DNA from: Brachyhypopomus gauderio
Taxonomy: Eukaryota; Chordata; Actinopteri; Gymnotiformes; Hypopomidae
Length of the DNA stretch: 64,000 nucleotides
Reading direction: 5' to 3'
Assembly: GCF_052324685.1 (NCBI RefSeq)
Contig: NW_027506900.1
Location: forward strand, 201,001 to 265,000
Shown: one piece after another, positions 113 through 44,551 of the stretch
Position numbering within the stretch: the first letter of the stretch is position 1
Layout of the letters: every line of letters starts with the position of its first letter
The notes under the pieces: model-generated
Seen by the model: only the letters and a program-made list of their open reading frames with translations
Databases searched by the model: none
What the model was told of the DNA's origin: nothing
Program-made: the position numbers and the translations under genes

Positions 113-3008
113 CTGAAACACAACTCTCGACTTCTCCAGAAGGTACGTCCTCATATGGGCCCCGATGATGCGATGCTTCCTGTCAAATCCAATCTCGATA
201 TATTTTCCAAAGCGACTGCTGTTGTCATTCCGTGTAGTCTTGGCATTTCCAATGGCCTGGCAATGAAATTATGGGATATGTACAGGGAACAAATGTATTT
301 ACTTCATTCATAATACAGTTGGCTGCTATGATTTTACCCAGTCACAATAACGAATTTACAGAAGTCTTTCAACAATTATTAAGGATTAGTACAGTCATTA
401 AATGAATAGATTCATGACAGAATGAATAAATACCTCCATTATGGGGCTGGAGGCCAACACTCTCTCCTCCACACTGGCCTCAGTGGAGGTGCCACTGACG
501 GTGACAAAATAACGCATGGCGTATTTGGCAGAGACAGTCTTCCCTGCTCCAGACTCCCCACTCACTATGATGGACTGGTTCCTCTCGTCTCTAATGGAGG
601 AGGATGAAGAGATCATTTCACTAGAGCGCCTCGGAACCACAGCATGGTAGCAGCAGCACTGTGGAGCTGGAGTGACGTGAATTTTCCAGAACACACGTTC
701 TCCAAGCGTAGGAGTGCTCGAGCAAAAAAGAGAGAAAAGGATTTTCAAATGTAAAGGTGATGTGATTATACTGCATTTTTGTAGACTTATTTTAAATGAT
801 TCTCGATCATTGCCTTATTTGTACTTACTGAACACATCATGAATTTACAAAGGAATTGGGTGTACAGATTCACCCTGGCAATACTAGTGGGCAGTGTTAA
901 AGAAGCCCAGAGAGTGGACATTAAGAAACATGAAACAGCAGCTTCTGACAACATGACAAATGGACCCGTAGAAGACACAGACATGGATGTTTTTACAGGG
1001 GAGATCATGAAGAACTGAGAAGTGCTCAGTGATGTCACGAACCTGGCCATCTGTTTATAGGCTTCCTCCGCCACGGAGAAGATATGAGGGTCCATGTCCC
1101 CCATGTTCTGCCCACTGTATGCATTGATGATGTCAGCTCCATAGATTGGCAGGGGCTCATAAGGATTGATAGCCACCAGGATGATTCCTAATTAGAAACT
1201 GCCATTTAACTCAAGAGGCTTCAGAGTGGGCTAGATCAGTAATCTGCAACAATTTTGCAAACACAGCTACCAAGAAGAGCTCTCCTCTTCTGTGGAACCC
1301 ATTAGTACTGAAATACTCAATGTTGACTGTACAACTGTCAGTAAGGATCTCTACACACACAGACACACACACACACAGACACACACACACACACACACAC
1401 ACACCATTATCTAAACGCAAATTCAAGTTTACAGCGCACAGGACAGTGCTGCAGGGCAATATCCACGGGACGGGTGCGTAATAACGCAACTCCAAAGTCT
1501 ACAGTCCACGCAGCGGTGGCCAGAGCCCAGCTGATGTCAGAGAGCCGTGTACTCACCGCAGTACGTGTAGATGAGCTTTGAGTCGATGAATCTCACGCGG
1601 AGGTTGTGCAGTACTGCTGGCTCGTGGAGGTAGCTCAGAGCAGTGAGGTCATTCTCCCCCACCAGGATATCTGGGTTACGGAGGGGAGGCAGAACGTTGC
1701 CTTTGGGCTCCAATTTATACTCCAACTCCTTTACCAATGTCAACGAACACCATAAATGAACAAGCACTGTAAATATAGCAGTTTATGTAAAACATCACTT
1801 TATTAGAAAGGCAGATGGCAAACAGATCAGCTACAGTCTGTAACTATACATCTATCCTATCCTACAAAGTGACTGTAGGTGCAGGTTAAGGGGTTTCTGA
1901 TATGGTTAGAGAGGAGTGTATATCAAACTTGAGTTTTTGCTGTGGTACATTGAAATTCAAAATTCTGAACTGCAGATTATGTGCTACATAGTCCACTGAA
2001 CAGGATCATGCAAACATGGGCCCTGAAATTAGATCAGCAATGTCATTTTTATAAGCTTAGTCAAGCTGAGCACCCTCCCTACTGCAGGTGCAGTTACATT
2101 TTGGGCAAAAAATGCAAAGCAGGCTACATGTAGATTTAAATTGACAGCTGACCCATAAATGACTCCTGATCCCAGTAGATATAACCATATATATTCACAA
2201 TTCAGTCTTTGCTTATCGACTGAATCACTGATTACACCAGGCTTCCTCCTCGTGATATCTGTACTTCCATCTTTCACTTCCCTTCAAACATGGATGGGAA
2301 GACACTTGGATAAACGCTTACATGCTGGCACCAGTTCACCCCTGCACTCATACTGCTGCACAAATTGAAGAAAGGGAGACTAAACTTACTAAACTTATGC
2401 TAATTTTGAAGCAGTTTGTAGTGTTTTGTTTTGTTTTTTTTTGCTCAGTACAAAGCACTTTCTATAGTCAGGGCTCAGGAGTAATTCATGTGACTTACAA
2501 TGAAAAATATTTGAGTAGCTAGTAATGTATAAATCTAACTTCTAGCTGGAGCGTCAGGTTTACTGACCGTGCCGTCCTCAATCAACAGCTGAAGAGCGGT
2601 GTCCCCAGGGCTGTAGTCTTTGGTCAGCTCTGCTGAGACCCACACCTCCACAGGGTCGGAGATCCAAACCCGAGCATACTACAGAAATAAAGTGTTGGAG
2701 TTTCATCTCAAGCATGGAACTAATAACAACAAATGCCATTAATACAATTTGGCTGTCCAAGTTCTTCACATATTCTTAACATAGTTTATACAGTCGACGT
2801 CTAAAGTCAGAATATCCTGACACGTAGACACATACGATAATCCTAACAGCGATTACAAACCAATCTCGTATTGTCGGGAGCGAAACTGTTTGCAGAGGAT
2901 TAGACAACGTTGGAGATCACCAGATCCTTCCTGTGAACTGACTCTAACAGCATGGAGTAGCGTGAATGTGGAGTGATTTACCTTTGAATATAGAGTCGGC
3001 GATGCCAT
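113..3008 (-). CDS. myo5a: Myosin Va heavy chain, N-terminal motor exons (partial)
   Basis: Unconventional myosin V is an actin-based motor that carries vesicles, melanosomes and ER. Six coding exons are visible: 2982-3008 (start, MASPTLYSK), 2568-2678, 1557-1728, 1043-1187, 434-590 and 113-256. Phases join cleanly into about 220 residues. Exon 2 holds the N-terminal SH3-like region (YARVWISDP). Exon 3 holds the stretch around [20 protein letters not shown]. Exon 5 holds the ATP-binding P-loop GESGAGKT. Exon 6 holds switch I ([10 protein letters not shown]). The residues around [14 protein letters not shown] fit Va better than Vb or Vc, and arpp19 next door supports Va. The rest of the motor, neck, coiled coil and tail lies beyond position 1. 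The exon 2 donor (GTCAGT) is weak but keeps frame. Confidence 0.85.
1356..1404. repeat. (CA)n microsatellite in a myo5a intron
   Basis: Imperfect CA repeat interrupted by AGA triplets, lying in the intron between the third and fourth coding exons of myo5a. Confidence 0.9.
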
Positions 3009-3727
3009 GACGCTTTCTAAAAAAATAATAATTTATTTTAAGGATAGGAACTAGATCTTCGTGTGGCGAAGAAGTGCGGACATGTGTAATCTCGTGGAGC
3101 TTCCCAAGCACTCTTAATGAGTTACACTACAGGAGAGTTTGAGATCAGCCCTTCCAAATCTCCAAGCACTCTGGGTATAAGGACACATTGATTCTGTGAT
3201 AAACTGCTGCTTGCTGAAGACACGCAACCCTCGCCACCCAGTGGTAAAGTAATCCGTTTCTTATCCAGGACATTTTAGCTGATTTGTGAGATCATCATAA
3301 TTCTGAAACGACTTAGTCCGTGTACATCTAGAAAAATTGTGAAAGGTTTACATTATTGTCATAAACGCACCTGTATAACCTGTAGTGTATGCAATATTTA
3401 GCAGGTACTGTGACAGTGAAATCAGGGTTTAACATTTTATTCGTTGTTTTATAACTAAAGTTGCAGTTCTTTTAGGAGTGGACCCTTTATTCTACCTCCA
3501 TGGTGCAGAATCCACTACTTTGAAAATGAACAAACATTTTATCTAAAATACCAACAAGCTGCACTTCCACTAGCTTTATTGATAAATATTACAGCACATA
3601 TTAATGAGGTACATTCATTTCATTTGGCCTTCTGAAAGTGATGGGAGTCTGAAATCATTTTCTGGTAGATTTATCCATCGCTATTACATTTTACAAGTTG
3701 CTGTGGGCTTACTACACATTTAAATGA

Positions 3728-4110
3728 CAGTATATACATTTACATTTAGCAGATGCTCTTATCCAGAATGCATCCTAGTAGCAGAAGATACCCTCGAGTC
3801 AGACTACTACTAAACTACAGGAATCAATGCCATTATCTCGTATTCCAAATGTATACCTAGAAGCACAAATAACCAGACAGATAAACATACAATTTAAGAA
3901 AAAGTACAGTCTGCGGTGTAAATGCTCATTTAAGTGCTCAACAAACAGGTGAGTCTTCAGGCTACGTTTGAAGACTGCAATAGACTGCAGTCTCAACAGC
4001 TACTGGAAGATCGTTCCACCATCTCGGAGTCAGGACAGAGAATAGTCTCAAGTATTGCCTTCCATGAGACTTTAAGCATGGCGTTTCAAGTCGAGCTATG
4101 CATCTATGAG
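3728..4110. repeat. Dispersed repeat, copy 1, with teleost SINE-like tail
   Basis: Begins with a segment containing ACATTTACATTTAGCAGATG and a CTCTTATCCAG motif. It continues with blocks such as CAACAAACAGGTGAGTCTTC, TTTGAAGACTGCAATAGACT and GGAAGATCGTTCCACCATCT. The same blocks in the same order recur at about 63222-63640. The two copies are clearly related but diverged. The opening segment also matches the reverse complement of the SINE tail near 44000. It is non-coding and lies between myo5a and arpp19. Confidence 0.75.
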
Positions 4111-4272
4111 GGAGAAAGAAAATTTCCCCATGCCACCATTATCCACATAAACAGACTTAAAAGTAATCATAACCTTCCAAACACAATACTCTGAACCATG
4201 ATGTTACCTACATAAACATGCAGATACAAGGATGACAGAAGAGAACACGTGTACATTTGTGTGCAAAACTAG

Positions 4273-17540: not shown

Positions 17541-19515
17541 AGATCTTCAAAACTAGAGGGTTGATCTCCTTAAAATTCTCTGAGAGTGTTTTAAGGTGAC
17601 TTATCCTCTAGGTTTGAATATGACAGCAATTTTAACAGCCATTTGGTTATTTAAAACAGACAAAGCAAAGTCCAAAAAAAAATATGCAGAAATGCATCTT
17701 TACATGAAAAAGAAACCCCAACAATGAGTCTTTCGCACACCAGGAAGACCATAAGCAGCACTGGCTGGTCCATGCCATCCTAAAGAAAGAACCCCCACTC
17801 AACACACAACAAACTGGAGAGAGAAAAAGACCACCACAGCAGTTTGTAGAATGACAGAGTGCATTGCATGTACAAAAATGCAAAAGCTTTTCCATTTAAT
17901 GGCATACCTCATTATGAGATAACAGTCTGTACAACAATAACATACTACGAAACATAAAAACATCTAAACAGAACACAATGTACTACGATCCAGTACAACA
18001 CAGCCATTAACTTGGGCTTTAACTAGAATTAAAATCAAGGAATGCTATGCTATTAAATGCTACCAAAAGTAACAAAGTACACAAATATATATGTAGATAA
18101 CATGCATCATATGGAAGTATAAGAGTTTAACATAGAACAGTTGAATGAGGTTATTTTTGGAAAAAATTAGACGGTGCATTTTAAAGCTTTATCAATGTGA
18201 TTTTCTTAAATCACACTTAACTCAAACGCTACAAGAGTAAAAAGGCAAACGAATTTTTTAAAGCACATGCTTGACTTTAAAAGTCTGTAAAAGACCAAAA
18301 ACATTTCAAAATAAAGACCATCTTAAATTTATATAAATTCTTACAGGGGTTACAGCATAAAACATCTTTTTTGCAAATATAAAAGCTTTGAACTGTATTA
18401 TTTGTCTGGACTATATATAGTAGTTGTGCAGATAACATGCAAAAGTAATTACCGCATCAAATCTCTCACATAACGTTAAAATAAAGTGTTTAATTAATAC
18501 ATAGTGTACCACAAATACTGCATAGGGGCATATTCTCTGTTAAGTGCTTCTTTAAAATATGAGATATGTCACAAAATTTCAAAGTAATAACAAAAGTAAT
18601 AAGGATATATCCCACTTTATTTCTACGTCTTTTAATCACTTTCAGTAGAAACTTTGGCAAGAAGGGTTAAGACCTTTTAGCAGCATCATAATGATGAAAA
18701 AACTAATTTCACTTTGTCCACAGAAAGGGGTGAATGAGGCTTCCACTATCAGTAAAACAATGCCAGTATAGAGACTTCCTAGATGACATAAGCATTGCAA
18801 ATCCACAGTATTTCTCAGTGGAACATAATGTTTTAACTATGCGATATTTCAAAAGAAAGAAGTTTATAATAAATCATTGCACATGATGTCAATGGTATTT
18901 AGTGGCAAGCCAGAAAGGTTGTACACTCTAAATAATGTAGCAATAATAAAAACAAGTTGTACTTGAAAGTATCAAGGTAATCAAGCATAAGATCATGTCT
19001 TCAAAATATTTGTTCTTAAAATTTACTTAAGTTAATAAGAGAACTGTTCGGAAGTTTAAATGTCCAATGATGAAATGTCCAGCTTAATACTTATACAGCA
19101 CAAAGGGATATAATTTCACAAGAACAAGAAATTCTGTAAGTATAAGGCATTAGCATTTTGCATATTGCATTTCATACCATGTTGAAGACTGGACATAAAC
19201 TGCACCGTGCAGGGTTATGATTGCATAATGCATAATGGCACATCCATTATCTAATCAATCAGTAATCATAAGAATGCAAAAAACATGAGACATAAAAAGA
19301 TTACTGAAATCAAAAGTTTGGCTCTTAGTTCAAGGAACAAAATACTTGAATTTCACTTTTTAAAAGATTTTGTCTGAATGCTTATCAGCAATAAAGGTGG
19401 CAAACTAACATCTCCTTGCACCTAAATGAATGTCTGAAACATGCCACAATGATCAATAGCCTTATCCACGATATATAGCCTTAGAATTATATATAACTCA
19501 AAGTAAACCCATGTT

Positions 19516-19521
19516 TGTGTG

Positions 19522-19601
<80 letters not shown>

Positions 19602-19607
19602 CACACA
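19516..19607. repeat. (AT)n tract inside a 92-base perfect palindrome
   Basis: Arms TGTGTGTAATTATAT and its reverse complement flank a long AT alternation, so the whole 92 bases are self-complementary. Confidence 0.9.
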
Positions 19608-20044
19608 TGCACACACTTTTACCGGAATAGATCAGATAAACAAACAGGCTTAACAAAATAATTTTTTTAAAACTAGATGCTCAGAAGATATCTGAAAGAA
19701 AAAAAATCCATAAATTGGATATTTTTGTAATATCCAGTTTACATATTTCCATTATTTATTTTATACCGTCAAACAGTAAGTACTTTCCTTTCTCTTTGGA
19801 GCATCAAATCACATGAAATAACACATTCCAGGATAGTTGTAGGCGTGCAAGTGCCAATGTCCTGCAAAGGCATTCAGACTACTCTTATACAAGAAGAGCA
19901 TCAATAAGAACCGCTGACCAGGCCATTGTAGCAGCAGGGCCAATGTCATACATATTGGCCAATCACATAATAGCCCCTGATCAGCTCACATCTACCAAGA
20001 TGGCTTTTTGGAATATTTCTGGTCGGAGGACAAGCTCTACTCAG

Positions 20045-22206
20045 TCAAATATCAGGATAAAACTCTGAATTCACATCCATAGTGTGCAGCACAGGCTTTT
20101 GTTCGGTATTAGACATTTTGCTTAGCACTTCTGATGAAAGCGTGTAGCTGTTCCCAGATTTCTCCTCAAACCAGCTGTCCAGCGGCCTCTTTCCATCGAA
20201 GTTGGCAATGGGTGGGCCATTAACAGCCAGGGTGAGCAGGTCATTCATCTGTTCCAGGGTTAATCTGGAGCGGTTGTTCCTTCGCACTTTGTACAAGGAT
20301 CCTCGTCCTTTATCGCAGCAGACAGTTGATGTCGGCAGGACCCTGACAACCTGCAGAATTTGACTGAGCAAAGGAAAACGCTGTTTGTTTCTGCATATAT
20401 GATTCATCACATCCTTAAAGCCATTCATGCTATAATAGTCAGCTTTGAGATCCCTCCATTCTCCTATTAGGCTTCCTCGTACGTCCATTCTGTCTTGGGA
20501 CAGCTCATGACCTGATGAGGGAATCGTTTCCAGATGGTCATAAATGAGCAGGATCTCCTCTTCCCCATAGGTTCGGAGGTCATTCCTGTTGCATGGCCAG
20601 GAGGCCAAATCAAGCACACTACAAGCTTGCACAACAGAACGGCTGCACTGGTCAATGCGCTGAGCCAGAATGCCCTGGCTCCGATGGCAGATCTTCTCCC
20701 GGATGGACTGAAACTTGGATTCTGCCACCCGCAAGTTCTTGAGGTCAACACCATTGAAGCTCTCGCGGAAGTTCTCCTCAAACTCTTGTAGATACTCTCC
20801 TGGAGAATCAACTAACTGACCAATCTCATGAATGGCTTCCTCAATCTTTGCATCGACATGCGAGACTAGGAGATAGTCTCCTTGAAAGATGAAGGCAAGG
20901 CGTGACAGAACAGCAATGACATCCAAAAGGAAATAGATCAGCTTCACAGACTGGTAGTCCATGAGGAACTGCAGGAGAGACAGAGCAATGGCGGCCGCAT
21001 CTGCCCTCTGGGTCTGAGTGCTGATGCACTTAAGGTGCGTCACCACTTCCAGGTAGTCTTTGATGAGGGCGTTCAGAACATTAGGCTCCCCAATGATCCA
21101 CCGAACCGCTCGTATGTCCCCAAGGAACTCTGTTTCCTCTGACAGCGTCGGTGCTGTTGATCTCAACTCAGCCATCATACGAGGTGAGTATCTGTAGAAG
21201 CTCAACAACTGCTTTAAGTTGTTCTCCAAATCATCTAAGCATGACAATTCCTTCCCACATATGGCATCTAGTATCTCCAAATGGGGCCGATGGATCATAA
21301 TGGGCAGACACAACATGAACGGGATAGTCTTACGAATGGCTACATAGAGGTTTGCCCTTAGACTACAGGAAATGTTGGAACCATCAATTCCCAAACCTAC
21401 AACTAGCATGTCTTGTAGCTTCAGGCCCAATACACCAAAGGCCCGATCAACAGCCTGAAGGTAGCCATCTACATTGCTACTACACAGTCTCTGTAACGAG
21501 AGAAACTCTGTAGCAGGTGGGCCGTCTGTGGTGATGAACTGCACATAAACCGCAACAGTGTCTGCCAGCAAATCGTCATTCTGCCCATCCATGATCACTC
21601 CAAGGTACGGAGAGAGGCGGATCTTCTCTGCCAAGTCCTCTTTGAACGCACGAGAAATGTGGTGGATAAGTATCTGGCAATCACTTTCGTTCATGTACTG
21701 ATCAACTACTTTAAGTTCACACTTCTTCAGCAGCTCTGCCAAAGGTCGGAGGTCAGAAAATGGACGCCCTTCGACTGCTAGATGGTAAGCAGCGTTGAAA
21801 AGCGTCATCATGTTCCGACACATCTCCTCAGTCTTCTCAGGATGCATGCGTAGCTTGTACAATTGCAGACATTTCTTGTGCAGGTTGCTCTGGCTATGCA
21901 GCTTGATGGTGTGAATTTTGAACTGCTTGGAGCCAATGATGAAAGCGGACGTCCTTGAAGACTGCACGGTATACTGCCTGCACACGTGACACCACATTTC
22001 ATTCAGCGTGGGGGAGTAGCGCAAGAACCAGAATTTCTTAAGCCACTCCTGCTTAAAACGGCGAATCCGCCGACCTGGACCAACAGATAGTTTAGATGTA
22101 TCGTCGGTAGCTACCAGCATGTCGGCGGCAATGGATTCGTCTGCAGAGTCAACGTCCTGGTCATCTTCTTCCAACACTGCTGGGATGGGGGTCATGCCCT
22201 CCATTG
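20045..22206 (-). other. hAT-transposase-like final exon of prdm11
   Basis: One uninterrupted 2.16-kb exon, joined in frame to the PRDM11 body (acceptor TTGCAG before CAATGG; junction reads SDDLR-AMEGM). Seen: an acidic start, a basic patch ([13 protein letters not shown]), a CHVC plus H-4-H zinc-finger-like motif (protein residues about 495, 498, 521, 526), and then blocks in the order of the RNase-H fold of ZNF862/hAT-type proteins: VIMDGQNDD (about 629), [10 protein letters not shown] (about 697) and MIHRPHLEI (about 728). No C-terminal hAT dimerisation block is evident. The open frame without stops suggests a selected, domesticated domain rather than a dead insertion. The hAT call rests on motif order, not a search. 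Confidence 0.7.
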
Positions 22207-25200
22207 CTGCAAGAGGACAGAAATGTTCTGTTTACATAAACGTCCTTAAACAGTTAAGCTGCTTACGCTGCATCAAATTAAACTACCTGGTTGTTTCTGT
22301 TTTTGTCATATGCTGTTTTATGACAAATCCCTTACAAAGATCTCAAAGTGAAAAACAATATAGTTGAACTGTGCCCAACATCCACACCTGCTCATAAACC
22401 TGCTACAGCACTGCACTGCAATTTGGCATTGTAGTAGTTTTGTTGATTAAATACAGTCATCCAATTTACCAGCTATACTGCAACATACCATTAAAAGTTA
22501 ATAATCGGAGAGCAAAATGAGAAGACAATGGTTTTTTTTTCCAAATATTTAATAAGATTATTAAGTTTACAGTTAAGTAATTTTACAGTTCAATAGAAAT
22601 GACACCGACAAACGTGTTACACCACGTTACACCAGCTTTGACGGAAATATTATTACCAAAGGAACGCGAGAAATGTATCTACGCATATGAGGTCATGTGC
22701 AGGAAGAGATATATGGACCACTGATTATTTGAGTATGATGCCGGTAGTCATCTAAAACACAGCATGACACCATTCCACTGTAGAGTTCGCGCCCAGTAAC
22801 AAACCTACCTCTGAGGTCATCACTGGGCAGGGGCTCAGATGGGGGCAATGCCAAAGTCTCAGCCTGTTCCTGCTGTTTAAAACGGAGCAGCTCAGCCTCC
22901 AGTTCTCGTATACGTCTCTTCAGTCTTACACAGTTGGGGCAGAACGATGTAGATGGGCCTTCGCTAGTCATATTATGTGGCGTAAGCTCTTCCTCTGCCT
23001 CCATTTTGACACATCTTTCATTAAGACTACTCTCCAACTGCTCCACAGGGGCCAGTCCAGAGGCCAAAGGACCCACCTTACACTCAGTCTGACTGAGGAA
23101 CGTCTCCGCTACATGGTGGGGAAACGTCCCAGATTGGTTGAAGACATTGCTGATTTGTGCTCTTGCTCTTGGTAATGATAGAGTGCTGTTTAATGGATTG
23201 TCCTGACTTTGGCTTGCTTCCAGCGATGCTTCCAGAACATCTTTAAAGATAAGATCAATCTTTTTTTTTTTGGCTTGAGGTTGGTTATCGGCCTCATCGC
23301 TCCCGTGCTTGCTGAGGGTTCTCCTCCCATGCAGAGCTGAGCGCAGAACGGGGCCTTGAGCTTCTTCTTGGTATTGGGTGAGGCCTTCTGCATTTAACCC
23401 TAAAGAACCACAAGGCAGGATTAAAATACAGGTACCATAACTTAATAAAGCATCAAAAGGCTTGTTTACAGGAAAATGTAGGGGAAAATAATACGAGAAA
23501 AGACATTTGAAAACAACAACGAAATTGACCAAATAGAACAAAACCTACATCACTTACCTGTAAAACCATTGTAGGTAAACTGCCCGGAACATTTCCTCTG
23601 TGATAATTTTATTGTTGACAAAAGTTGTTAAAGCTCAGTTCACATCATAACAGTGAATTATATTTAGAAAAGTGTTTCTATACTTAATAAAACAATTACA
23701 CTTTGTAGTATTACGAGTTTACTAACGTTTTGGTAAATATATTATTTTGGTGTTTGTCCACTCAAGAAGTCTCTCTATATAATTTTCTTTGCAATGTATA
23801 ATTTCATTTGTGAAATTTGTGGTACAAGTGTTCACATGCACATTTCATTTTGCTTAATTTGATGTTGGTTGTTCATGGACCTATGACGATCATACAAGCT
23901 AATTCAAAACCAGCGCTTAGAAAAAAAAAAGGCAGACTAGTCTACACACTCAGACTTTCATTTTCAAATATGACTATTTGAAGTTTAGTTGTCAAATATC
24001 CACCAAATGTCTCAGAAGTTGATTACTGCGCACTCAGGACCCCAGTAACAGCTTATTACATCAGTAAGCATTCACCCAGTTCCACCTAATAAAACCTGGA
24101 AGTGTTTCTTTAATCAGAGACAGCAGGAGATAGCTCACCTGTGTCCTGGTGGCGGCCAATCCTGTCCTGGGAGATGCTCTGCAGTCGTTTCATGTAGTCA
24201 TCGCTGTACCACACGCAAAGTCTTTCTCCCACTGCCAGTCTGCGACACACACGGAAGTAAATATGCTCGCCATGCTGGAAAGCGCTCAGGTTCCTCTCAC
24301 TCTCCTCTGAAGACACCCGGACATATCTGATAAAACAACATGGAGCGTTTTAAAATGGAGACAGTTGTGTACAAAGGGAGCACCAACGTCGCGGCTGAAG
24401 CCAGACCTGTGGTCTTTACCTCATCCAGTTTGCTATGGTCTCATCGCGGCCATCGATGGACTTGTACGTGTTGTCCTCGTTAGCAAGCTAAAACAAAATC
24501 ACCAACATCTCAACGAGTGAACAGAAATGCTGGTCGATTCAGAAGTAACATTTAAAAACAGACGTACCATCCATGTGTAGATTCCTGACTGCTTGTCTTT
24601 GGTGATCAGCTGGCCTTGGTAAGGGCCAAACAGAGCCCCCTTGGGGATGTTCTCATCCATGCAGCAAACGTCCACCTCCTGGCCCTCCCCAATAATCTCA
24701 ATTCCAGAAGGCACAGTGAGAACTGCCCGATTAGGCAGACCCAGTGCAACAGGAGTGTCAGGCACGAAGACAGGGGGGCCATGGGTTGGACATTCCTCCA
24801 AAAAGAACTCCCTACAATCTTCACAGACTGCAAAAACAAAAAGCTATTAGAATCTTCATTCGTAAAGCGTACTTCAACACATGAATTACACGACCCTTCA
24901 TGATGAAAGTTATTTGAGGACCCAATACCCACACCAGAAGTCAACATTCTGTTGTCCCACAGTGGCGCAGTGCTCGTGGTTCACTTTTAGCTTTTTGTTC
25001 GGCTCCTCTGAATATTCATTGTTGACACTGAAATTTTACACATTTTACAGTTAATGAAGGCACTACATTCATTATTCAATCACTCGTATTGTCTAGGTAG
25101 ACTGGACAAAAAGAAAATGGAAGTTGCCTCCCAGTTCATCACCGTTCGTGACACACCACCCCAACTTGAGGGGAACCCTTGAGTGTATGTTTGCTAGGGT

Positions 25201-25277
25201 TGATCTTATTACCCTGTGCTGCAGTCTGGCTCAGTTTCCATACACGGCTCAGTGGGAAAGGTAGCAGGGTCTGCCAT
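20045..25277 (-). CDS. prdm11: PR/SET domain protein PRDM11 with a hAT-derived C-terminal half
   Basis: PRDM11 is a PR/SET-family nuclear regulator. Seven coding exons, 25213-25277, 24933-25027, 24568-24827, 24420-24487, 24139-24326, 22809-23399 and 20045-22206, give 1142 residues, against about 511 for the human form I know. All phases match. It starts [12 protein letters not shown] Cys cluster ([23 protein letters not shown]) leads the PR/SET domain (about residues 55-225), with AIPSG-like and FGPYQGQL elements and [16 protein letters not shown], and ends [12 protein letters not shown]. Exon 6 has the PRDM11 hallmark [18 protein letters not shown] (about 269) and a [18 protein letters not shown] zinc-coil segment (about 385-405). 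The final exon adds residues 423-1142, described separately. A stop soon after the exon 6 donor (reading on into the intron) would give a short form resembling the human protein. Confidence 0.9.
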
Positions 25278-38800: not shown

Positions 38801-41800
38801 GTTCATAGGAGCGATGCTCAGCTAGACCAACAAAGTGCTTTATACCTTTAAGATGTTTCTAGTAACCACTTTAAGAAAGTTCCATAAAGACCAACAAGAA
38901 TATTATGATTTACCTTAAAAAATGCTTCACTTGCATATCAAAGTAGGAAGGACTGTTTTGCATAAGAACACATGTAAACAATCTAAAATGGGTGTTCAGA
39001 CTTAGATTAGAGCACACATTGAGGAGAAATGCAACATGAAAAGTTCACTCCTCCCGAAATCACAATCTGTTCCATTTGTTCTGCACAAACTTCTTTGTTG
39101 ATACTAGGTGCTTTTTGAATGGGTCAGAGTTACCTTGAACCTCTGAACCAGGTCTGCTTTGATTAGCTCGTATTGCATTTGGGCAGGAATCCATGTACCG
39201 TTTTGGTTGGGACTACATGGGTAAACCCATGAAGGCTGTTAAACCAATAAACCTCTGCCATCTTCAGACCTCATATGCACACCTGTGGATATTATGTAGA
39301 GGGAAAATGAAGGAAAAGGAGTTCTACCTCTGGCTCAAACACTGCTCCACTGTACACAGGGTTGGCCGTTGTTCTTCTTTTGCGTTCCTGCCTTCTGCTC
39401 TGAATCTCTGAAACATGACCGCAGAAGACATGAAGCTTGGTGTTTAACTTGCTACTGGTTAACTTGACATGTCTAAGGCTAGTAGCACTTACCTTCAAGA
39501 TGGTCATGTGTGACCAACCCTAGAGACACCATGAAGGCAAGTTTCTACCAAAGAAAATAAAAATATTTCACTTCATGCAGAGTTTAAATGTGTGTGTATG
39601 CTCGCGTAGTCACAATTATTAAAGCAAACAGTGTTTTAATGACTCCTGAGGTAAGCATGATACTGACATTGCTGAGATTTGCAAAAAAGTAAAAGAGTGT
39701 TCTTATAAGGTCAACATAGACATGTTTAAAGTCAGATTTGCTCAATCTAGTACAGTACTGTTATACCTGTGGGTTCTCCTCTCGTTTAATCTTAGGAACA
39801 GGAGGAAGAGGAGGAGGTGATGAAGGAGTGCTTGTAGGCACCTTCTCTGAACCCCCCTGAGATTTCACAGTCTGTCAGTTCAACAAAAAGAAAGGATGTT
39901 CAATGCATTTATTCAGATAACAAGACTTATTGCCCCACAATGCTATACCTGAGCACTTTAAAAAGTCTATTAAAACAATAACGAGAGGACTGTATTTTTA
40001 TTAAGCCCGATTGTTTAAAAGAATTCAAGATCAAATGAAAACCTTCCCGTCCCTCAAGATCCCACGAGCTACAATAAAACTCACCTTGGTGTCTGTATTT
40101 AGGCTGCTGATCTGCAGTGTCTGCACAGGGCTGCCGATCACGATGCCCGTCACCTGGGCCGTCACGCCTCCCGCCGGGCCCGTTTTGGGCACGGCCTTGC
40201 ACGACTGCCCGTTGACAATGCGCACTTGGTGGATGGGCCCGGCCGAGGGTGGCGTCAACTTGGTGGTGAGCATGACGGGCCGCTGGAGAAGCTGCGGGGC
40301 CGCCATCATGGGCGGGGGCGGGGCCGGCGCGATAGGCACGTTGTTGGGGGCGGTGGGTTTGGGACGCACCTGAAGGGCACAGAGGAGTGAAGTTGGAGTG
40401 CCAAGCGTGGTACATCGAAAAGCACAACCACCCCCCCCACGGCCAGCAATTGGGTTAGGGAGGAGTCCATGCCCTTTATCAAGCATCATGCTGGCATGAT
40501 GAGGCCTTGGGTAATGCTAATGAGGAGCTCTGGTTAACTCTTTATTGCCAGTGAGATGCTCCCATATTCTCCTTCTCTGCTGCTGGCGTGGTGGGAAAGC
40601 CCTAAAGTCCTAATGAGGGTGCATGCCCCAGAGTTACACTTAACTGGGAAAAGTATTCACTCACCCAAATTATCGGAATCAGGTGTTCCAATCACTTCCA
40701 TGGCTACAGGTGTATAAATTTAAGCACCTAGGCATTCAGACTGTTTTTACAAACATTAGTAAAAGAATGGGTTGCTCTCAGGCACTTAGTGAGTTCCAAC
40801 GTGGAACTGTGATAGGATGCCACCTGTGCAACAAATCCAGTCGTGAAATTTCCCCACTCCTAAATTTTTCACAGTCAACTGTCAGCTGTATTATGAGAAA
40901 TGGAAGTGGTTGGGAATGACAGCATCTCAGCTACGAAGTAGTAGGCCACATAAACTGACTGAGCGGGGTCGAAGGATGCTGAAGATGTCGCCAACTTTCT
41001 GCGGAGTCAATACAGACATCCAAACTTCATGTGGCCTTCAGATTATCTCAAGGACATTGCACAGAGAGCTTCATGGAATGGGTTTCCATGGTCGAGCAGC
41101 TGCATCCAAGCCATACATCACCAAGTGCAATGCAAAGTGTCAGAAGAAGTGGTGTAAAGCACGCTGCCACTGGACCCTAGAGCAGTGGAGGTATGTTCTT
41201 TGGAGTGACGAATTGCACTTCTCCATTTGGCTATCTGATGGACGAGTCTGGGTTTGGCTGTTGCCAGGAGAACGGTACTTGTCTGACTGCATTGCACCAA
41301 GTGTAAAGGTTGATGGAGGTTTTGGAGCTGGCCCCTTCCTCTTCCAACATGACTGTGCACCAGTGCACAAAGCAAGGTCCATAAAGACATAAATAGTAGA
41401 GTTCTGGATTCACTTGACTGGCCTGACTTCAACCCGATAGAACACCTTTGGGATGAATTAGAACGGAGACTGAGAGCCAGGCCTTCTCGTCCAACATCAG
41501 TACGTGACCTCACAAATGCGCTTCTAGAAGAATGGTTAAAAATTCCCATAAACTCCTAAACCTTATGGACAGCCTTCCCAGTAGAGTTGAAGCTGTTCTA
41601 GCTGCAAAGGGTCCAATGTCATACTGAACCCTATGTATTAGGAATGGGATGTCACTTAAGCTCATATGTGAGTCAAGGAAGGTGAGCGAATACTTTTGGC
41701 AATATAGTGTATTTTAAACGCATCCTTCAGGAGAAAAACACTGGGCTGAACAAGACAGAGGCCGACAGTTACTTCACTCAAGGCAAATGTGGCATCACAG

Positions 41801-44551
41801 GACTGTTACTTAAAAATAGGACATCGATCCTTTTAACCAGGGCAAATCCATAAGCTAGTCTTTACATTACAGTAAGGAAAACAAACTCTCCATCTATTCC
41901 CTAAGGTTAAATGGTTGGACTACAGAGCTCTCAGTAGCATTATATAGCTTTGGTTAAAGGTTTTTTTTTTGTGTGAGTGTGTTATATATATATATATATA
42001 TATAAACACTGAAGGTCAATGAAAGGGTCAGCCAAAGCACAAAATGAAAAGAATAAAAATGGTCAAACCAGCCTAAAGAGCAAAAGAACATGACAACAGC
42101 ACAGACATGTAAGTAAAGCACTGGAAACTCCAGCCTGTACACAACGTGATACTCGAGACACTCGCTATTCACAGAAAATAAGACAAATGGACACAGCAAA
42201 TTATAAACAACAACAAAACCACAGCCAGTGCCAGGCCAGAAACCAACAACAGGAACAGCAGAACGAGGAGGAGTACGGATAATGGGATCCTGCAGTATTT
42301 GGGCGAGTGCACTACATGGTCTACATGGGCGTGTGCACTACGTGGGCGAGTGCACTACGTGGGCTACGTGGGCGAGTGCACTACATGGTCTACATGGGTG
42401 AGTGCACTGTGTGCTCTACATGGGCGTGTGCACTATGTGGGCGAGTGCACTACGTGGGCGAGTGCACTACGTGATCTACGTGGGCGAGTGCACTACGTGG
42501 GCGAGTGCACTACGTGGTCTACGTGGGCGAGTGCAAGCTCCCTATGAAACCTACAGGTTTTAAATCAGCAGCTGTGCTTATGTATACAGCCCTGCACCTA
42601 CATGATGCCATTCTGATTTGTTTGTCATGAAACAATGAATTCCATATGTACATGTTGGCAACTACGCACTCAGTCCAAGTCTGAACTCATTTGGCTATTA
42701 GAGTCCCTCTAGTGGCATTTGTGTTGAACTGCACACACTGGGAGAGGGAAGGGAGTGGGCGGGTCTTACAGAGACGCACCTGTGGCAGAAAGGTGGGTCG
42801 AGGCGTCAGTCTAGGAGGAGGGACAAACTGGGGAACTTTGATAGGCTGAGCCGAGGTGGTGCTGGCCTGCACCTGTGACAAAACCAGTGCTTTATTGGCA
42901 ATCAAGCAGCACTGTTTGGAGAATTGATTATAATCTTTTGGAAAGATTATAAAGGTCAGTTCTCAGTCGTAAATAACGTTACTACATGGTGGGCCTTTCT
43001 AATACCAGAACATCCTCTCTGGCCTCTTGGTTTTAAATCACAGGTGAAGGCCAACACCCAACACAGCCTGGCGCATCATCACAGAGGAATCTTCATTCAC
43101 ACATACAGATCATTTTCCATCCACAAAATATCAAAGCACTTCAGAATTGAACACTGACCCTTTCTGCAGGCTACGACAATTTTTTAAATCCTTGAAATTA
43201 AACTGAATTTCATTTGATTTGGGATGCACGTGTGCCAGGTCCTGTCAGCAGCTTGCACAAGGAGAACGAGGCAGGTTAGCAGAGACGGCAGATTCCACTC
43301 ACTACGATGACGTTCTTAGACGTGACCCGTGCCGCCGTCTCCGAGTCCCGATTGGTTAATTTGTTGGCCACCTGAAGGTTGACCGGTGCACTGTGGGAGT
43401 CGGGGTTCGCGGTGGGCCGGGAGGGACTGCTGATGGCAGTAACCATGGCGACGGTGGGGCGTGACGTAGCCATGGAAGCCGGCAAGGGGGTGGTGGCAGC
43501 CTTCAGCACTAGAGGTAGAGTCTTCGTGTGGGGGAGCGGTGTGACGGGCAGAGTCTTCTGTTGAATGAAGGAAGACACGGAAGGAACAGCACAGTGAGTG
43601 AGACGAAGAGATAAGTAGCATCAACACAGTAGAACTATTAGTTAGCAGATTATAAAGTATTTCTCCTTACACAAGAGCACGTCAAATAATGCCACAGCCT
43701 AACGGTACAGTCGTTAAAACAAAATGGGGCTCACCAACAGATGAAAAGCCACCATCCTCATTGTATAGTAGCACTTCTGTGGGATAATGCTAAACTGGGC
43801 GGAGTGGCCATGCCTTGCTCTGTTCACCTTTCAACCTTCTTACAACTGCAGTCATGGCCTGGTGGTTAGGGAACTGGTCTTGTGACCGGAGGGTCGTGGG
43901 TTCGATTCCCAGACCTGAGGCCATGACTGAGGTGCCCCTGAGCAAGGCCCTTAACCCTCAACTGCTCACTTGTACAAAAAATGAGATAAAAATGTAAGTC
44001 GCTCTGGATAAGGGCGTCTGCCAAATGCCGTAAATGTGAATGTAAATGCTCTACGGTCAGACAGGGAGGAAGCTCATCCCCAGTCACATTCTTTTGGGAT
44101 ACTACACAAAAACAGGGATGCGCCACTGGGGAGACCCCTGAGGTCTCTGAGGGGTGGGGGTGTGGTGGCCCCTAGGGGCTATGAGAGTGAGGGTGACCCC
44201 TGGTTGACCCCAGCTTTACCTGTGGAGACGGCTGGTGGTGAGGAGGCCCTGCCGTCTGCAGCTGGCAGGGGGGCGTGAGCAGCACGGCTTTGCCCTCCGC
44301 CCCTCCCTTCACCTTCACCTCTGGCTCCTGCTTCACCAACAGCTCCTTCCTCAGCTGCTCCACCACCTTTTTCTGAGACACAGGGGAGCAGAGAGAGGCG
44401 TTTAAACTCAAAAGATGGTGGGGTGTGTAAACCCCTCAAAAGGTTTTGCATTAGAATGTATAGTCAGATGTTGAGAAAGCTTAATAGAATTTCCTGTTAC
44501 ACGCCACCACTCCATTACTGTTTTCCAAACGTGTAATTTGCCCAAGTAGAT

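Follow-up and report, generated by a model that had tools for sequence, protein, structure and literature searches.

A predicted PR/SET–hAT transposase fusion at the prdm11 locus of Brachyhypopomus gauderio

Introduction

The design closest to that of the gene described here is found in SETMAR, a SET domain fused to a mariner transposase in primates (PMC12062965), and a zebrafish gene is also listed under the SETMAR name (PMC2200798). Host genes have likewise been derived from hAT transposases, among them ZNF862, GTF2IRD2 and ZMYM6 (Table 1 of PMC3257199), the recruited transposase exons being mostly intronless (PMC3257199), and hAT DNA-binding parts have been reused many times as DNA-binding proteins of the CGGBP type (PMC8097297); these papers, like the others cited below, are represented by excerpts. 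Here we analyse prdm11 of the fish Brachyhypopomus gauderio in a window of 64,000 nucleotides (nt), the whole stretch of DNA examined (contig NW_027506900.1, positions 201,001 to 265,000, assembly GCF_052324685.1), in which the PR/SET-encoding exons of this gene appear to be joined in frame to a terminal exon of hAT origin.

PRDM11 is described as the PRDM protein free of zinc fingers in the excerpts of three papers (PMC2082429, PMC6214140 and PMC13113268), against a contrary entry, ‘PR domain + zinc fingers’, in a table of PMC13203297, and is reported to derive from a duplication of PRDM9 (PMC5519329). Mammalian work places the protein at transcription start sites, where it is reported as a repressor of FOS and JUN (PMC13203297, PMC7177584). 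PRDM11 is absent from Table 1 of PMC3257199, which says little because that table covers genes with newly gained introns. As far as the excerpts go, the transposase in PMC5519329, PMC2200798, PMC3529403 and PMC4199189 is Tn5, SETMAR or HARBI1, unrelated to a joining of PRDM11 and hAT, and PMC11600626, which contains both PRDM11 and a word beginning in transpos-, is likewise unrelated. No paper linking PRDM11 to hAT was found in the open-licence literature, taken without supplements and mostly judged by title and the start of the abstract, and the same literature yielded no paper naming C17orf113, a family name that enters below. Long PRDM11 models may perhaps exist already in the annotation of other vertebrates.

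Results

Gene model and splice junctions

The best explanation of the locus as a whole, which we regard as probable, is a fish prdm11 gene whose last coding exon would be a captured hAT transposase, making a host–transposase fusion whose hAT part, probably dead as a catalyst, serves in DNA binding and dimerisation. The gene lies on the minus strand from 25277 to 20045 and comprises seven coding exons, called exons 2 to 8, with the reading frame held throughout; its coding sequence of 3,429 nt corresponds to 1,142 codons and a stop, the sole stop being terminal with none internal, so that the closure at 1,142 codons claimed from the letters alone in an earlier note on this DNA was reproduced. 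All six introns are of the GT-AG type, and the phases match at every one of the six junctions.

The decisive junction joins exon 7 (22809..23399, minus strand), which encodes the PRDM11 linker with its CPNC motif and, by eye, a charged leucine-spaced helix, to the terminal exon 8 (20045..22206, minus strand), which encodes the putative hAT-transposase-derived module at residues 423-1142. Exon 7 ends in CTCAGAG followed by gtaggt, with the donor at 22808, and the acceptor acatttctgtcctcttgcag stands directly before 22206; the two are separated by an intron of 602 nt. Rebuilding the coordinates and phases gave phase 1 on either side, in agreement with the previously claimed fit of the donor to an open exon of 2.16 kb. 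Splice sites were scored with a matrix of the Shapiro-Senapathy type, which placed the exon 7 donor at the 99.4th percentile among all GTs of the window and the exon 8 acceptor (score 12.1) at the 99.8th percentile among all AGs, making the latter the top acceptor between 22790 and 20050.

The frame of exon 8 is open for 728 codons from stop to stop and is thus beyond chance: when the exon was simulated 200 times with an order-2 Markov model, the longest one-strand open frame was 221 codons, and in 20 replicas of the window it was 225 codons. Taken on its sequence, the PR/SET–hAT fusion is well supported, with one predicted open frame running over the splice junction. The fusion gene proposed in the earlier note therefore stands as far as sequence carries it, namely in its frame, splice signals, profile homology and single copy.

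Upstream, the model consists of the first coding exon, exon 2 (25213..25277, with its ATG at 25277), exon 3 (24933..25027), exons 4 and 5 with the PR/SET domain (24568..24827 and 24420..24487) and exon 6 with the end of that domain (24139..24326), all on the minus strand and placed by frame and splice sites, together with matches to human PRDM11 structure 3ray for exons 4 to 6 and a PDB match for exon 3. Exon 3 has a weak acceptor (59.7th percentile), which makes the 5′ part of the model less certain than the 3′ part. Downstream, the span from 18800 to 20045 was scanned for AATAAA and ATTAAA, and a single polyadenylation signal was found, an AATAAA at 19755..19760 on the minus strand. At window positions 19516-19607, about 150 bases past this likely signal, repeated AT dinucleotides form a perfect palindrome whose arms are 46 bases long.

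hAT ancestry of exon 8

Judged by homology over nearly its full length, exon 8 is a hAT transposase by descent. It carries a predicted zinc finger of the Pfam family zf-C17orf113 (PF25431; 35.4 bits, over the cut-off of 29.5) at 21854..22027 on the minus strand, with candidate ligands C495, C498, H526 and H532. A profile built from three hAT-type proteins encoded elsewhere in this genome (L013, L011 and L017, each with Dimer_Tnp_hAT over the Pfam cut-off) and excluding exon 8 matched it with 150.6 bits over exon residues 46-683, whereas the highest score among 1,000 shuffles was 4.9 bits; the profile search thus found the similarity to hAT proteins whose absence the earlier note had named as a refutation. 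The motif order claimed there was hAT-like and ZNF862-like: Pfam, the alignment and the profile agree with the hAT order, and a specific likeness to ZNF862 was not shown, the matches being to a C17orf113-type zinc finger and to the three genomic hAT-type proteins.

The same three proteins and exon 8 form the four-row alignment and profile A1, in which the columns of the four zinc-ligand candidates (C72, C75, H103 and H109 in exon numbering, to which 423 is added for the whole protein) are invariant. Profile A1 reaches the Hermes transposase in the PDB with an E value of 1.6e-05, matching at the putative hAT C-terminal dimerisation region (20234..20413, minus strand), where the match of exon 8 to Dimer_Tnp_hAT (PF05699) is weak; because the profile contains the relatives, the Hermes match backs the family and not exon 8 alone.

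Catalytic positions

The catalytic columns of A1 were assigned by reference to hAT motifs. On that assignment, the first and second catalytic aspartates of the hAT triad are kept as D629 (exon D206; 21587..21589) and D697 (exon D274; 21383..21385), both invariant across the four rows, and the other two signature positions are changed, as seen in A1 and in a pattern scan: in the hAT CxxH motif isoleucine I725 (exon I302; 21299..21301) stands in place of the cysteine, with a cysteine three residues earlier, and the catalytic glutamate of the CERGFS motif is aspartate D1054 (exon D631; 20312..20314) within CCDKGRGS, all on the minus strand. Exon 8 accordingly carries D, D, D and I for C in place of the active-transposase signature D, D, E and CxxH.

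At the motifs found elsewhere in the genome these positions are kept. In open pieces of the fetched loci, the pattern scan found E in the glutamate motif at 12 of 12 distinct genomic places besides exon 8, and C in the CxxH motif at 10 of 10 distinct places, from which exon 8 differs; the pattern accepts D as well as E, and I as well as C, yet because it catches only well-kept motifs these counts lean to conservation. The rows set aside from the CxxH count, since their first pattern match fell elsewhere, were L010, L013, L015, L017, one piece of L030 (seen again in L051), the zinc-finger piece of L027 and L033, and exon 8 itself; the cysteine is nevertheless present in L013 and L017 in A1 and, by eye, in L010, L015 and L016. 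As the third acid is now D and the CxxH cysteine is now I, the hAT core of exon 8 is probably catalytically dead.

Copy number, flanks and age

Searches of the fish's own genome covered an assembly of 796.5 Mb in 840 contigs. The DNA search, which leaves out simple repeats and very common words, returned one match to exon 8, namely itself. At the protein level, hAT-type matches to exon 8 numbered at least 45 at E values up to 0.01, itself included (62 of 129 candidates scored); the long matches are 19-26% identical, short zinc-finger stretches reach 36%, and the best E value is 8.9e-15. No stray relative of exon 8 was found in collections of bacterial-archaeal and viral contigs. The G+C content at the three codon positions of exon 8 (0.535, 0.356 and 0.567) is like that of the PR/SET exons (0.560, 0.404 and 0.609) and unlike that of the 3′ flank (0.290, 0.324 and 0.316).

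No exact inverted 11-mer is common to the flanks 24000-22207 and 20044-18800, although short imperfect ends would escape such a search. Of 54 inverted pairs, the 25 longest all lie within the AT repeat at 19516-19607, which was considered as a transposon end and rejected, as it forms its own palindrome. The single DNA copy, the 19-26% protein identity and the lack of a shared inverted 11-mer together suggest that the hAT capture would be an old event.

Other hAT-derived sequences were seen in the course of these searches. About 26 kb beyond the end of prdm11, near an IQ-motif exon, lies an L011-type hAT copy over two frames (L051:3523-5719, minus strand; G000:C56, about 194.5 kb), which is not the source of exon 8 because its matched part is 20% identical. 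Seven C17orf113-type zinc-finger matches are spaced 1,897 bases apart at G000:C5:32172132-32183678, and this spacing indicates a hAT-derived stretch turned tandem array. At L017:1417-4188 on the minus strand, an open hAT frame (671 residues, 1417-3429) follows immediately after a Tc1-type transposase frame in the same orientation (252 residues, 3433-4188; HTH_Tnp_Tc3_2, 90.8 bits), the pair being an apparent nested or abutting element.

PRDM11 identity, PRDM9-like loci and neighbouring genes

By sequence comparison with the PDB, the N-terminal half of the predicted protein is PRDM11: model residues 31-222 matched human PRDM11 structure 3ray with 262.4 bits (E value 2.7e-77), and PRDM9 came second with 152 bits. 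The PR/SET search of the genome returned the prdm11 locus first, followed by further PR/SET loci that are 32-44% identical, and the exon 7 search matched exon 7 alone; neither of these searches found a prdm11 duplicate of the kind that the teleost duplication could have left. Two of the other PR/SET loci, L049 and L050, were fetched with their surroundings. Compared with the PDB, L049 scores 100.2 bits against PRDM9 and 71.8 against PRDM11, which makes it PRDM9-like, and L050 is called PRDM9-like from the genome PR/SET search and inspection only; after the SET exons, 5 and 12 C2H2 pattern matches follow at L049 and L050, respectively, with Pfam zf-C2H2 over its cut-off in both. Many PR/SET matches (32-44% to PRDM11) lie within about 0.4 Mb at G000:C20:3630914-4021838, which looks like a PRDM9-like tandem expansion.

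Among the neighbours of prdm11 in the window that pass the Pfam cut-off are a myosin head, an endosulfine-type sequence and an inward-rectifier potassium channel exon, and a CD59-like piece falls below it (21.7 bits against 33.9). The stretch at about 40000-43600 resembles PHF21A by eye, and its pieces 40031-40516 and 43279-43620 are without a Pfam match. Within it, at 40847-41392 on the plus strand, lies a Tc1-like transposase remnant (HTH_Tnp_Tc3_2, 27.7 bits, below the cut-off of 31.5).

Discussion

We propose that prdm11 acquired, downstream of its own exons, a hAT element or only the coding part of one, that a strong acceptor just before the hAT start codon would have permitted in-frame splicing, and that the transposon ends would have been lost. 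In the resulting protein the hAT zinc finger would bind DNA, the C-terminal region would dimerise the protein, and the role of chromatin effector would fall to the PR/SET domain with its linker, while the transposase core has probably lost the ability to cut DNA. The outcome would be a dimeric, sequence-targeted chromatin regulator of SETMAR-like design.

Several observations weigh against this proposal. An in-frame ATG with a start context judged fair lies 2 nt inside exon 8 after the acceptor, which would allow the exon to be translated by itself. The match to Dimer_Tnp_hAT, at 17.1 bits, stays under the Pfam cut-off of 21.4, and exon 8 on its own has no sequence match in the PDB at E values up to 10. 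AlphaFold run without an alignment gave a mean predicted local distance difference test score (pLDDT) of 37.4 for exon 8 and 51.4 for its zinc-finger stretch, too poor to confirm the fold expected of it, RNase H with the hAT insertion. The search for transposon ends covered exact 11-mers only, and the change of E to D at the third catalytic position, being conservative, does not prove that cutting has been lost.

The ATG is also the starting point of an alternative that we consider unlikely, namely that exon 8 belongs to a separate unit downstream of prdm11, either a domesticated hAT gene or an old element, that is translated from its own ATG at 22204 and unjoined to the exons before it. It is in keeping with the number of hAT-type matches in the genome and with a phase match that chance would give one time in three; the frame, for its part, is open for nine codons upstream of the exon too. 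Such a separation is at odds with the strength of the two splice sites, the acceptor outscoring every other one from 22790 to 20050 and the donor ranking among the top 0.6% of GTs, and with exon 7, which ends without a stop and, if unspliced, would read 38 residues into an intron of only 602 nt; the AATAAA found after exon 8, in a scan of 18800-20045, also speaks against it.

The fusion could instead be real and young, a fish-lineage event caught by splicing and without a selected function, which we hold to be quite improbable. In its favour, the copies of one genomic hAT family (L010, L013 and L033) appear near-identical by eye, but exon 8 has no DNA relative in the genome and its long protein matches are only 19-26% identical while 719 codons have stayed open, and its flanks lack an exact inverted 11-mer. 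Least probable, to the point that we give it very little weight, is a prdm11 protein in which PR/SET would anchor to chromatin a transposase that is still active or still cuts DNA: the two catalytic aspartates are retained and the third position is still acidic, but exon 8 departs with D from the glutamate seen at all 12 genomic places found by pattern, and with I from the CxxH cysteine seen at the 10 pattern-found places and at 2 more in A1. We therefore favour the captured, probably catalytically dead module spliced to prdm11 over all three.

A broader reading would make PRDM11 a PR/SET–hAT fusion in origin: once PRDM11 had diverged from PRDM9, early in jawed-vertebrate history, a captured hAT would have replaced its zinc-finger array and brought a different DNA-binding zinc finger together with a dimerisation arm, and the mammalian PRDM11 described without zinc fingers would be a short form or a later loss. 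To us the case for this stands about evenly balanced. The hAT zinc finger would fill the zinc-finger gap of PRDM11 and, if the fusion is true, would explain together with the dimerisation arm how PRDM11 finds DNA; the location at start sites and the repression of FOS and JUN, both mammalian data from the excerpts cited above, fit a DNA-guided repressor. A true fusion would also open to direct test the sequence preference of the module and its retention in mammals.

Relative to known systems, PRDM11 itself is the only PDB entry whose PR/SET stands closer than that of PRDM9, and the two PRDM9-like loci fetched carry C2H2 arrays where prdm11 has the hAT exon. ZNF862, GTF2IRD2 and ZMYM6 share with prdm11 a hAT transposase in a host gene and its intronless transposase exon; these and the other hAT-derived genes are not known to have a PR/SET domain. 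The zinc finger of exon 8 falls within the C17orf113 family (PF25431) by the Pfam cut-off. The CGGBP-type proteins, as described in the excerpt of PMC8097297, come from hAT DNA-binding domains, whereas the predicted prdm11 protein keeps nearly the whole transposase in fused form. SETMAR and prdm11 are alike in joining a SET-type domain to a transposase whose DNA-binding part would target the chromatin domain, and differ in their components, SETMAR having its own SET with mariner and prdm11 the PRDM11 PR/SET with hAT. Host–transposase fusions are thus already known and PR/SET with hAT is a new domain pairing, which, if the fusion is true, would place one more SET–transposase fusion beside SETMAR.

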